This document shows, one piece after another, positions 13,209 to 16,021 of a DNA stretch of 56,866 nt; within the stretch, counting starts at the first letter, position 1, and each line of letters begins with the position of its first letter. Location of the stretch: NCBI GenBank assembly GCA_025361705.1, contig JANYJW010000062.1, positions 1-56,866 on the forward strand, written 5' to 3'. The DNA comes from Gemmatimonas sp. (lineage in GTDB: Bacteria > Gemmatimonadota > Gemmatimonadetes > Gemmatimonadales > Gemmatimonadaceae). A program made the translations under genes and the position numbers. Under the pieces are notes generated by a model. That model worked only from the letters and a program-made list of their open reading frames with translations, had not been told where the DNA came from and did no database searches.

Positions 13209-13290
13209 GGGGAATCCGGGGTGAGGGCCGTTGTAGGCTACGCCAGATGTCGCGAAAAGGGTAGCGACCCCACCAGGGCCCCCGTATCCG

Positions 13291-13360
13291 GTCCCTCGTC
13301 TCCCGTCCCTCGTCTCCCGTCCCTCGTCTCCCGTCCCTCGTCTCCCGTCCCTCGTCTCTT
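13291..13360. repeat. 14-base tandem repeat, five copies
   Basis: Four identical copies of GTCCCTCGTCTCCC are followed by a fifth ending in CTT instead of CCC. The array fills most of the gap between the yceI stop and the start of the amidohydrolase gene (both minus strand), so it lies where the amidohydrolase promoter or a yceI terminator would be. Confidence 0.92.
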
Positions 13361-13380: not shown

Positions 13381-13914
13381 CTACGCCGCGACCGGCACCC
13401 CGACGGCCACGGCCTCGAGTTCGAGCGACAGCTTGACGTCCTCGCTCACCATCACGCCGCCGAACTCGAGCGCCGAGTTCCAGGTCAGGCCCCAGTCCTT
13501 GCGGAGCAGCCTGCCCTCGAGGGTCAGCGCCGTGCGAGTGTTCCCCCACGGGTCCTTTACCACCGCGCTCGCCTCTCCCTTGAGCGTCACCGGCCGGGTG
13601 ACGCCGTGCATGGTGAAGTTGCCGGTGATCTCGATCTCGGGGCCGTCCTGCTCGATCTCCGTCGACGTGAACGCCATCGTCGGGAACTGCTCGGCGTCAA
13701 AGAAGTCCGCCGAGCGCAGGTGCGCGTCACGCTGCTCCTGGTTGGTGTCGATGCTCGCGGCGTCAATGCTGAAGGTCGCGTGCACGAGCTGGCCGGCCTC
13801 GTTGGTCTCGCCGGCGCCCTCGAACTTCGTGAAGCGGCCGCGCACGGTCGAAATGGCCATGTGCTTCACCGAAAAGCCGACCTGCGTGTGCGTCGCATCG
13901 AGTGTCCACTGCAT
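13381..13914 (-). CDS. YceI-family protein
   Basis: The 177-residue protein is a lipocalin-like YceI protein, which binds isoprenoid-type lipids in characterised relatives. Diagnostic blocks are WTLDATHTQVGFSVKHMAIS, VRGRFTKFEG, ATFSIDAASIDTNQEQRDAH, LRSADFFDAEQFPTMAFTS and GNFTMHGVTRPVTL. No signal peptide is present, unlike E. coli YceI, so this form is probably cytoplasmic. The ATG at 13914 follows AGGAG by nine bases. A palindrome nearly identical to one at the marR start lies about 76 bases upstream, so MarR control is likely. Confidence 0.93.
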   Translation of the reverse strand: MQWTLDATHTQVGFSVKHMAISTVRGRFTKFEGAGETNEAGQLVHATFSIDAASIDTNQEQRDAHLRSADFFDAEQFPTMAFTSTEIEQDGPEIEITGNFTMHGVTRPVTLKGEASAVVKDPWGNTRTALTLEGRLLRKDWGLTWNSALEFGGVMVSEDVKLSLELEAVAVGVPVAA

Positions 13915-13969: not shown

Positions 13970-14005
13970 TGTATATGTTTGTACTAAGCATCTCACTACT
14001 AAGAT
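13970..14005 (-). promoter_or_regulatory. yceI promoter region with MarR-type operator
   Basis: ATCTCACTACTAAGAT at 13990-14005 (plus-strand reading) differs by one base from the palindrome at the marR start. A second TACTAAG lies 15 bases away at 13982-13988. On the minus strand a TATACA box (13970-13975) would place a -35 element inside the operator. The region is clearly AT-richer than its surroundings. Confidence 0.65.
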
Positions 14006-14020
14006 AATAGATCAAGCAAA

Positions 14021-14040
14021 CGGGGGCGTCAAGCCCCCCG
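14021..14040 (-). terminator. Rho-independent terminator of marR
   Basis: Read on the minus strand, GGGGGC and GCCCCC arms enclose a TTGAC loop and are followed by GTTTGCTTG. It lies 21 bases after the marR stop and just upstream of the yceI operator, separating the two units. Confidence 0.7.
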
Positions 14041-14061
14041 GCACGTTCGGCGGTCGCACGC

Positions 14062-14544
14062 CTACCGCTTGGCGTCCGCCGCTGCCGCCAGCCCCAGCTG
14101 CTTGAGCAGCGCCGTCGCCTTCTTCTGGTCGGCCCGCGACAATCCCGCCATGGCCTCGCGAATGGCCTCGGCGTGGCCGGGAAAGACCTCGTCCATCAGC
14201 GCCTCGCCCTTGCGCGTGAGCGCCGCATACCGCGCGCGGCGATCGGTGGCGCACAGCTTGCGCTCCACCAGCCCGCGGTCGGCGAGCTTGTCCACCAGAA
14301 ACGTGATGCCGCCGCTCGACACCAGAATCTTGCGCTGCACCTCGCCCAGAAGCAGCGGCCCCTTGTGGTACAGCGCCTCGAGGATGGCGAACTCGGTGAT
14401 CGTCAGCCCGTGCGCGGCAAGATCGGTTTCGGTGTGTTCGCTGATCGCGCGCTGCGCGCGCGCGAGCACGACGTAGAGCTTGAGGGCGGTGGCGGCGGCA
14501 TCGCTCGCCTGCACGCGCCGGGGGGCGGAGAGTGTGATTGTCAT
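14062..14544 (-). CDS. MarR-family transcriptional regulator
   Basis: The 160-residue winged-helix regulator shows the MarR pattern: LTITEFAILEALYHKGPLLLGEV (helix 2-3), KILVSSGGITFLVDKLADRGLVERKLCATDRRARYAALT (recognition helix and DRR wing) and LTRKGEALMDEVFPGH. It probably represses itself and the nearby yceI, because a 16-base palindrome covers its own start codon and a near copy lies upstream of yceI. The ATG at 14544 is preceded by a TATATC box only 11 bases upstream, so the leader must be very short. It lies 19 bases after the decarboxylase gene. The inducing ligand is unknown. Confidence 0.92.
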   Translation of the reverse strand: MTITLSAPRRVQASDAAATALKLYVVLARAQRAISEHTETDLAAHGLTITEFAILEALYHKGPLLLGEVQRKILVSSGGITFLVDKLADRGLVERKLCATDRRARYAALTRKGEALMDEVFPGHAEAIREAMAGLSRADQKKATALLKQLGLAAAADAKR

Positions 14545-14584
14545 CTCAGTACTAAGATATACATCAGGCGGGCTCCGACAGCAA
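14543..14584 (-). promoter_or_regulatory. marR promoter and autoregulatory palindrome
   Basis: On the minus strand TTGCTG (14579-14584), a 17-base spacer and TATATC (14556-14561) form a sigma-70-like promoter inside the 3' end of the decarboxylase gene. ATCTCAGTACTAAGAT at 14543-14558 is a 14-of-16 palindrome that covers the end of the -10 box, the expected transcription start and the ATG itself. Confidence 0.7.
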
Positions 14585-16021
14585 CCCCGCCCCCTCCGCC
14601 GCCAGCCCATCGAGCAGGGCGGCCACATGCGACGCCTGCGTGCGCGGGTTCATCATCGTCACGCGCAGCACCCGATGCCCGTCGAGGACCGTCGAGGTGA
14701 TCCACCCACGCCCCGACGCGTTGTAGCGCTCGCGCAGACGGAGGTTCAGCCAGTCGAGCGTGGGCTCGTCGTCCACGCCCGGCGCCAGCCAGCGGAAGCA
14801 CAGGATGTTGCTTTCCGGCACATGCAGCGCGGCAAAGTCCGGGCGCTCGGCGATCATCGCGTGCAGCGCCGTGGCCAGGCTGCACAGGTGATCGTAGAGC
14901 GCGCCCAGTCCGTTGGCGCCATGGCGCTGCAGCGCCACCCACACCTTGAGCGCGTCGGCGCGACGCGAACACATGAACGACCGCGTGCCCTGATCGACGC
15001 TGCGCGTGCCCTCGGCACCCTGGAACAGGTACGGTGCCTGCTGCGAGAACGCGGCCGTGAGGTCGCGTTCGTCGCGTGCCAGCAGCGCCCCGGCCGCGAG
15101 CGGCAACAGCATCATCTTGTGCGGATCCCATGTGACCGTGCGCGCCCGGCCGATGCCGCGCAGCCGATGTGCGTGCGCCGCCGACAGAAGGGCCGAGGCG
15201 CCATGTGCACCATCGACGTGCAGCCAGAGCTTGCGCGCTTCGCAGAGCGTGGCAATGGGGTCGAGCGCATCGAAGGATCCCGTGGCCGTGTGTCCCGCCG
15301 TCGCCACCACCGCCATCACGCGGCGTCCTTCGGCCTTCACCGCGTCGAGCGTGGCTGCCAACGCCGCGACGTCCATCTTCCAGTTGGTGGACGGCACGGC
15401 GCGCACATTGTCGGTGCCGATGCCCAGTTCGCCGCCGGCGCGCGCAATGGCGTAGTGCGCGTGTTCGCCGCAGATAATCACCGGCGGGACGCCACGGATG
15501 CCGCGCTTCCACGCCTCGGGGTCGAGCGCGGCGCGGGCGGCGAGCAGCGCCGTATGCGTGGCTTCGAGGCCGCCTGAGGTGATGGTGCCGCCCGAACCTG
15601 CACCATACCCGGCGAGGTCGCACATCCAGCGCACCACGCGTTCCTCTACGGCAGTGCCCGTCGGCGACATCTCCGACACGGCCAGCGAGTTGTTGAGCGC
15701 GGCGATGACCGCCTCCGTCCAGACGGCCGACGGCAGCGGCGCGGCCACCTGGTGCCCCATGTACATCGGATGCGACAGGCGATTGGCGTCGGAAAAGAAG
15801 TCGCGGTCGAGCCGCGCGACGATCTCGGCCAGCGGACGTCCGGTGGCGGGCATCGGTTCATCGAAGCGCACGCCGCGCACGACCGATCCGGCGGTCGATG
15901 ACACAGCGCCTTCGCCACGCCCCGTCTGCTCAAAGTAGCGCGCAATCAGGTCGACAAAGAGCGCCCCGGCATCGCGGGTGCGGTCGGAGGCGAGGGCAGC
16001 GTGCAGGTCGTCCGGGAGCAT
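14564..16021 (-). CDS. PLP-dependent group II decarboxylase family protein
   Basis: The 485-residue enzyme belongs to the glutamate/aromatic-L-amino-acid decarboxylase family. Landmarks are HPMYMGHQVAAPLPSA, TSGGLEATHTALLAAR, the Asp motif LHVDGAHGASALL and the PLP lysine in TWDPHKMMLLPLAAGALL. It should decarboxylate an amino acid or a related compound; its substrate cannot be read from the motifs. The ATG at 16021 lies 9 bases after the stop of the double NTF2-like gene, and the stop is 19 bases before marR. The marR promoter lies within its last codons. Confidence 0.88.
   Translation of the reverse strand: MLPDDLHAALASDRTRDAGALFVDLIARYFEQTGRGEGAVSSTAGSVVRGVRFDEPMPATGRPLAEIVARLDRDFFSDANRLSHPMYMGHQVAAPLPSAVWTEAVIAALNNSLAVSEMSPTGTAVEERVVRWMCDLAGYGAGSGGTITSGGLEATHTALLAARAALDPEAWKRGIRGVPPVIICGEHAHYAIARAGGELGIGTDNVRAVPSTNWKMDVAALAATLDAVKAEGRRVMAVVATAGHTATGSFDALDPIATLCEARKLWLHVDGAHGASALLSAAHAHRLRGIGRARTVTWDPHKMMLLPLAAGALLARDERDLTAAFSQQAPYLFQGAEGTRSVDQGTRSFMCSRRADALKVWVALQRHGANGLGALYDHLCSLATALHAMIAERPDFAALHVPESNILCFRWLAPGVDDEPTLDWLNLRLRERYNASGRGWITSTVLDGHRVLRVTMMNPRTQASHVAALLDGLAAEGAGLLSEPA

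Follow-up and report, generated by a model that had tools for sequence, protein, structure and literature searches.

Proteins of the MhqR type within the Firmicutes are reported to share over 40% identity, and the entries 9QDR and 9SMZ represent MhqR of Staphylococcus aureus (SaMhqR; PMC12893000). This regulator binds TATCTCGAA-ATCGAAATA, a site that spans -6 to +12 of its promoter and offers a model for the blocking of RNA polymerase (PMC6798810, PMC12893000). In solved YceI proteins an isoprenoid or ubiquinone-8 is often held in the barrel (PMC9113575), and yceI of Ralstonia rises with the phenolic compound methyl gallate, in an account that does not mention MarR (PMC8472277). From these reported ligands and this induction, quinone binding by YceI appears plausible. 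A search of the literature on YceI together with MarR, pirin or quinone, which covered mostly journals outside subscription, yielded no description of a YceI protein under an MhqR-like repressor; in the literature text of the same kind that was searched for the operator letters, no match was found.

The marR-yceI locus and its operators

In the window (the whole analysed stretch of 56,866 nucleotides from Gemmatimonas sp.), a marR gene is followed on the same strand by yceI (Table 1). The MarR protein scores above the cut-offs of both Pfam MarR_2 and Pfam MarR. The YceI protein covers the full PF04264 domain (profile positions 1-150 of 150), and its nearest solved structure by sequence is 1WUB, TT1927b of Thermus (E 9.7e-55). 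A preliminary description of this DNA had pointed to two 16-mers, one at the marR start codon and one upstream of yceI, as a shared operator of the MarR protein, and direct location in the sequence placed both exactly where it had put them. They form the inner part of two 18-bp inverted repeats, O1 and O2, with the consensus TATCTYAGT-ACTRAGATA. The one-base difference between the two 16-mers, already spotted in that description, is conserved in the genus: GTAC lies at the centre of the marR operator in 8/9 members (GCAC in the other), and GTAG at the centre of the yceI operator in 7/8 (GTAT in the other).

Table 1. Positions of the features of the marR-yceI region in the window.
Feature	Position	Strand	Remarks
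marR, MhqR-like MarR-family regulator, 160 aa	14062-14544	minus	Pfam MarR_2 47 bits
yceI, YceI lipocalin, 177 aa, no evident signal peptide	13381-13914	minus	Pfam YceI 165 bits
Operator O1, 18-mer TATCTTAGTACTGAGATG	14542-14559	minus	From sequence, genome-wide search and genus alignment
16-mer of O1, ATCTCAGTACTAAGAT	14543-14558		
Operator O2, before yceI	13989-14006		Overlaps -10 hexamer
16-mer of O2, ATCTCACTACTAAGAT	13990-14005		
Possible weak second operator-like site, TGCTTAGTACAAACAT	13975-13990	minus	3 mismatches, just downstream of O2
yceI promoter -35, TTGACG	14027-14032	minus	With -10: 10/12 consensus, spacer 17
yceI promoter -10, TATTAT	14004-14009	minus	Overlaps O2
Terminator-like hairpin after marR, stem GGGGGC/GCCCCC	14021-14040	minus	Loop contains yceI -35
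Pyridoxal-dependent decarboxylase gene	14564-16021		Ends 5 bases before marR operator
Minisatellite, 5.7 copies of 14-base unit CCCTCGTCTCCCGT	13279-13358		Between yceI and amidohydrolase gene

The last three bases of O1 are the marR start codon, and its 16-mer includes the A and the T of the ATG (14544-14542). In all nine aligned marR genes of the genus, including the one in the window, the end of the operator supplies these two bases. Since the operator contains the start codon, the marR message would be almost leaderless; given the short distance to the end of the preceding decarboxylase gene (Table 1), marR may also be read through from there. Counted from the first base of the yceI ATG, the A at 13914, the 16-mer of O2 is 76-91 bases upstream. 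Among eight aligned genus members, the window included, the -35 hexamer TTGACG of the yceI promoter is present in every one, and the -10 hexamer reads TATTAT or TAATAT throughout. The terminator that the preliminary description had placed between the two genes was recovered as a terminator-like hairpin, the same bases serving this structure and the yceI -35. Inspected by eye, its stem is kept in 6/8 genus members, with a compensating pair in L037, and is not present in L040 and L043.

The palindrome by itself is weak evidence for an operator, because the window holds 57 16-mers in which 7 or 8 of 8 pairs match, the marR site being one of them, and palindrome strength was consequently rejected as stand-alone evidence. 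When up to three mismatches were allowed, three places in the window together produced five matches to the operator pattern; shuffled sequence averaged 0.31, and not one of 100 shuffles came to five. The site just downstream of O2 is palindromic in 6/7 pairs in L043 only, other genus members having 3 to 5 of 7 (n=8); with a good palindrome in just 1/8 members it is probably not functional and was not counted as an operator.

Operator sites in the genome and in relatives

With at most one mismatch allowed, the operator pattern occurs in five places in the Gemmatimonas genome, a draft of 2.97 Mb in 71 contigs that is 93% complete, and every one of them is just ahead of a gene. The genes concerned are marR, yceI, a gene for a dioxygenase-like protein of the VOC superfamily that weakly resembles catechol and dihydroxyphenylacetate dioxygenases (contig C6), a pirin gene (C56) and a pair on C71 in which a luciferase-like monooxygenase of the Atu2307/SP_0267 family is divergent from an alpha/beta hydrolase. 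A sixth site, with two mismatches, precedes a second yceI (C31), so that each of the two YceI genes above cut-off in this genome has a site upstream; both proteins match the whole YceI domain. The second yceI (C31; L015 547-1221) is located directly downstream of a gene for a DtxR-type iron-dependent repressor with a FeoA domain. At up to three mismatches the pattern was found at 11 places, against one for the backward control. The five places with three mismatches all overlap long open frames, and the same holds for five of the seven other places with TATCT-N8-AGATA, the remaining two (L112, L113) lying near frame starts; neither group was accepted as weaker sites, and the cores of the seven do not fit.

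The genome search that the preliminary description had proposed returned a small set of matches, the strong ones standing just before genes and not at random places within coding sequence. Its proposal of one regulator acting on its own gene and on a YceI gene gains support, as far as sequence can indicate, from the recurrence of the two-site arrangement in relatives. The suggested small regulon holds as to size, with at least six sites, but not as to the general stress or lipid-binding content: the genes look like a set for quinone or electrophile detoxification. Besides marR, ten places in the genome match MarR_2. They comprise a methyltransferase with an ArsR-type HTH, ArsR, DtxR-type, ArsR-like HTH_20, Rrf2, LexA and HTH_34 proteins, two matches for which no family lies above its cut-off (L206, L207), and a short HTH protein on C10 (L200) that has MarR_2 as its best family with 31.8 bits. 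Most of these being other HTH types, the genome has a single clear MarR regulator in marR and possibly another in L200.

Sixty genomes, this one included, were searched for the pattern with at most one mismatch, and the pattern read backwards served as control. It occurred at 57 places in 18/60 genomes, the control at none in 60. Gene families were assigned by similarity to seed genes, and two duplicate rows of L033 were dropped. The sites precede marR, yceI or recurring detoxification families, including MhqO-type dioxygenases and FMN reductases, in 54/57 cases, or in 55/58 when the two-mismatch site of the Gemmatimonas genome is added, counts that show coherence and are not an independent test because the families were chosen after viewing loci of the same set. 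The 55 sites are distributed over marR (13), cytosolic-type yceI (9), yceI with a signal-like start (7), the VOC protein (6), the monooxygenase/hydrolase pair (6), pirin (5), MhqO-type VOC proteins (5), divergent MhqO-type and pirin genes (2) and FMN reductase/hydrolase (2). Three of the 58 precede none of these families, two of them about 100 bases or less from a contig end. Sites were present in 16/32 genomes with marR (E up to 1e-15) vs 2/28 without it (Fisher p 0.0005, ancestry not corrected for). The two exceptions, G008 and G009, in which sites but no marR were found, belong to the same genus, one being 91% and the other 78% complete. Some congeners (L023 1622-2059; L026) have a gene for a BlaI/MecI-type repressor (PF03965 in L023) that faces the operator and runs divergently from pirin.

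For single loci, a site was defined by the arms ATCT-N8-AGAT with 7 or 8 of the 8 bases kept, and reversed arms were used as control. By this rule an operator precedes marR in 31/55 distinct Gemmatimonadota loci, against none for the control; no operator was found before marR in the other 24 of these loci, in 23/47 Bacillota loci and in three loci of other or unknown phyla. The built-in start codon, i.e. an in-frame ATG at that place, recurs in 24/31 Gemmatimonadota operators and in 0/24 Bacillota operators. Of 298 genomes sampled from the phylum Gemmatimonadota, 139 have a relative of the regulator at E up to 1e-18. One in-frame TAG each is contained in two marR-like matches from other genomes (G098:C1:3099405-3099839 and G082:C101:2734-3150).

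A yceI gene lies inside the fetched flank of marR in 27/55 distinct Gemmatimonadota loci, and in 22 of these 27 (20 if palindromy is demanded) the 250 bases upstream of this yceI contain the arms, vs 0/27 for the control. In a wider set including more distant loci, the arms stand before yceI in 29/53, with none for the control, and upstream of the two marR-linked yceI genes outside Gemmatimonadota they were not found. An MhqO-type gene near marR in Gemmatimonadota has them in 7/10 cases, the control in one. Among the counted sites, one before yceI (L124) and two before the MhqO-type gene (L064, L145) are probably false. In L056 and L144 the marR and yceI operators both carry another core (TTGA/TCGA type), and the sites of the two genes thus agree within a genome.

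Relationship of the regulator to MhqR

The predicted model of the MarR protein (mean pLDDT 93.3) consists of four helices, a two-strand wing and two further helices. Among the best 50 of its 311 PDB fold matches below 0.001 the hits are of the MarR type, and 9QDR ranks first. SaMhqR is also the best PDB match by sequence (E 1.6e-23, next 2.2e-11) and by profile (1.2e-42, next 2e-20), at an identity of 36%. Outside the phylum, the best 80 loci among the matches listed are from Bacillota, apart from three whose phylum is another or unknown, and a Bacillus swezeyi homologue is 46% identical over 135 residues. This gene, like its B. safensis counterpart, adjoins a MotB gene and a gene for a Cache-domain histidine kinase, a neighborhood that we take to be the kinD-mhqR-motB place of B. 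subtilis mhqR; the arm rule found no operator before either homologue (L184, L185). The family tree, which was obtained by a quick method and has many open forks and very long outgroups, was put to two uses only. In it SaMhqR groups with the 47 Bacillota rows in a single set (SH-aLRT 97), and the nearest rows to the window's protein are congeners.

Residues were mapped onto SaMhqR by a gap-free alignment, with a deduced offset of 3 between chain and published numbering. The quinone pocket residues F11, F39, E43 and H111 correspond to Y24, F52, E56 and H124, three being identical and one changed from Phe to Tyr. F52, E56 and H124 are invariant among the 27 rows aligned with SaMhqR and jointly kept in 53/55 Gemmatimonadota rows, and 54/55 have an aromatic residue at position 24. 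The same pocket residues are reported from other MarR regulators with other ligands (PMC12893000), and they are accordingly neither proof of a quinone ligand nor specific to MhqR. S65 and S66, which are essential for DNA binding in SaMhqR, are replaced by G78 and G79, and of the wing residues D88, K89, V91 and Y92, which align with D101, R102, A104 and R105, only the Asp is identical, Lys being changed to Arg.

On the DNA side, the window's operator agrees with the 9-9 bp TATCTCGAA-TTCGAGATA type of MhqR in arms and position but differs in the core. Repeats of this kind precede the Bacillota homologues as well (for example TATCTCGAATTCGAGATA in L167, and TATCTTAAATTTAAGATA): all eight arm bases are found before the regulator gene in 15/47, against 1/47 in the control, and 7 or 8 of them in 24/47, against 8/47. 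Near the Bacillota regulator, the repeat is upstream of pirin in 6/13 loci and of an MhqO-type gene in 2/3, with no control match in either case. By sequence, targets of the MhqR type behind the operator comprise the VOC protein in the Gemmatimonas genome and MhqO-type VOC proteins and FMN reductase in relatives. Because essential loop and wing residues of SaMhqR are not conserved and the core is another one, we refrain from classing the regulator as MhqR proper; it resembles MhqR in the arms of its operator, in where the site lies, in the kinds of target and in the pocket, and it is best called an MhqR-like variant, one of Gemmatimonadota.

Residue 79 and the operator core

Position 79, which holds Gly in the window, is Gly in 82, Ser in 47 and Asn in 41 of 170 distinct homologues. 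This set includes 59 extra loci picked by hand for spread, not at random, from the list of 298 genomes, and 19 more that came with that list. For the 91 homologues with an operator, Gly79 goes together with an A[GC] core in 48/51 regulators, and Ser or Asn with another core in 40/40; by site, the figures are 70/75 for Gly and 44/44 for Ser/Asn. In these counts palindromy was required, which removed L133 and L194, two rows contrary to the link between residue and core; a first count without this requirement gave 23 to 3 (Gly) and 28 to 1 (Ser/Asn). On the tree the residue changes only twice and the core three times, there are two independent pairs, of which one agrees and the other shows no difference, and a smaller set of 64 regulators gave a similar result with three changes each; with so few changes the link cannot be told from shared ancestry. 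The Gly sites without an A[GC] core are those of L057, L151, L215, L235 and L269, among which L151, L215 and L235 look like false matches. In the Paenibacillus loci L151 and L168, inspection by eye revealed a different repeat, TTACCTATGATGGTA, just before a marR homologue that nevertheless has Gly79, which speaks against a one-residue code. A branch with the loop VTGGN (20 Gemmatimonadota rows, family f5) has no operator before the marR homologue by the rule; these rows (L243, L246, L249-L252, L254, L256-L268) may read another sequence.

One far-reaching reading, which we offer tentatively and hold to be possible at best, is that the Gemmatimonadota YceI proteins are dedicated quinone handlers induced through an MhqR-like quinone sensor, that this sensor clade reads a new core, TTAGTACTAA and not TTGANNTCAA, due to the change from Ser or Asn to Gly79, the first residue of the recognition helix, and that the sensor's own operator has been fused with its start codon.

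Proposed regulation and alternative explanations

From the computed sites, their positions and conservation, the gene families and the similarity to MhqR, we infer DNA binding, repression, ligand and YceI role as follows. The MarR protein is likely an MhqR-like repressor that acts through the shared operator on its own gene, both yceI genes and the detoxification enzymes, and is released by quinones. Its dimer would sit on the 18-bp inverted repeat overlapping the -10 and start region of the targets and thereby block RNA polymerase. A quinone or related electrophile filling the pocket formed by Y24, F52, E56 and H124 would displace the recognition loop, and the protein would leave the DNA. This would derepress marR, both YceI proteins, the VOC dioxygenase-like protein, pirin, the luciferase-type monooxygenase and the alpha/beta hydrolase, in relatives also the MhqO-type dioxygenase and FMN reductase, while YceI would bind or carry quinones or quinols.

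The same regulator and regulon could answer to another aromatic or fatty compound, such as a phenolic acid, a salicylate-like molecule or an isoprenoid lipid, lodged in the common MarR pocket. The shared use of these pocket residues for other ligands (PMC12893000), the Trp at position 24 in 40/55 Gemmatimonadota rows and the binding of isoprenoids by YceI proteins in general (PMC9113575) are all consistent with it, but VOC dioxygenase-like proteins, pirin and FMN reductase as targets fit the detoxification of quinones and catechols, and the nearest characterised regulator is MhqR; we consider a ligand other than a quinone rather unlikely. Alternatively, electrophiles or oxidants might be sensed not in the pocket but by a thiol switch at C98 in the wing. 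It is the sole cysteine of the window's MarR and is kept in 43/55 Gemmatimonadota and 43/47 Bacillota homologues. The remaining homologues have Ser, Arg or Asp at this position, however, the location in the DNA-binding wing may reflect a structural role, and quinone sensing by SaMhqR is reported to need no such switch (PMC6798810), which leaves the thiol mechanism a still smaller share of probability.

That a different transcription factor reads the sites, marR being merely one of its targets, would account for the congeners G008 and G009, which keep sites although marR was found in neither, and with L200 the genome does encode another MarR_2-type HTH protein. Among the ten MarR_2 matches besides marR, however, only L200 has that family as its best above cut-off, the marR start codon lies inside 24/31 of the Gemmatimonadota operators found, the arms are common to MhqR boxes, and in L056 and L144 the marR and yceI operators share their deviating core. 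We regard a separate regulator as very improbable. As for chance, the window's 57 near-perfect 16-mer palindromes speak for a coincidence, but the sites return ahead of the same families in numerous genomes while the controls match rarely or never, which leaves this explanation practically no weight.

With repression by the MhqR-like protein and release by quinones as the preferred reading, a testable function emerges for YceI, whose role is largely open: one operator before both YceI genes and before detoxification-type enzymes suggests binding of quinones or quinols under electrophile stress. The MhqR type of control, described for Firmicutes, would thereby extend to Gemmatimonadota, and with a defined operator the regulon can be annotated across many uncultured genomes.

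Comparison with known systems

A regulator with a YceI gene (bxe_B3019) as neighbor is known from Burkholderia xenovorans, where MgxR (Bxe_B3018) is reported to respond to methylglyoxal and to use a different operator, in both of which it would differ from the window's marR (PMC4349456). To the YceI lipocalins (PF04264), among them BcnA of Burkholderia with its cytochrome LcoA, the Ralstonia YceI and Thermus TT1927b, the likeness lies in the whole domain, which both YceI proteins of the Gemmatimonas genome possess. RosR of Corynebacterium glutamicum is a MarR regulator of monooxygenases, an FMN reductase and a polyisoprenoid-binding protein, with a redox-active cysteine and an operator unlike that of the window. 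The closest counterpart is MhqR (YkvE) of B. subtilis and S. aureus, with which the system shares an 18-bp inverted repeat with TATCT/AGATA arms that overlaps the start region and precedes the regulator's own gene, VOC-type dioxygenases among the targets, and identical F, E and H residues in the pocket. In contrast to MhqR, with its core TCGAATTCGA, the window's operator has the core TTAGTACTAA, encloses the start codon, precedes genes for YceI, pirin and a luciferase-type monooxygenase, and belongs to a different phylum.
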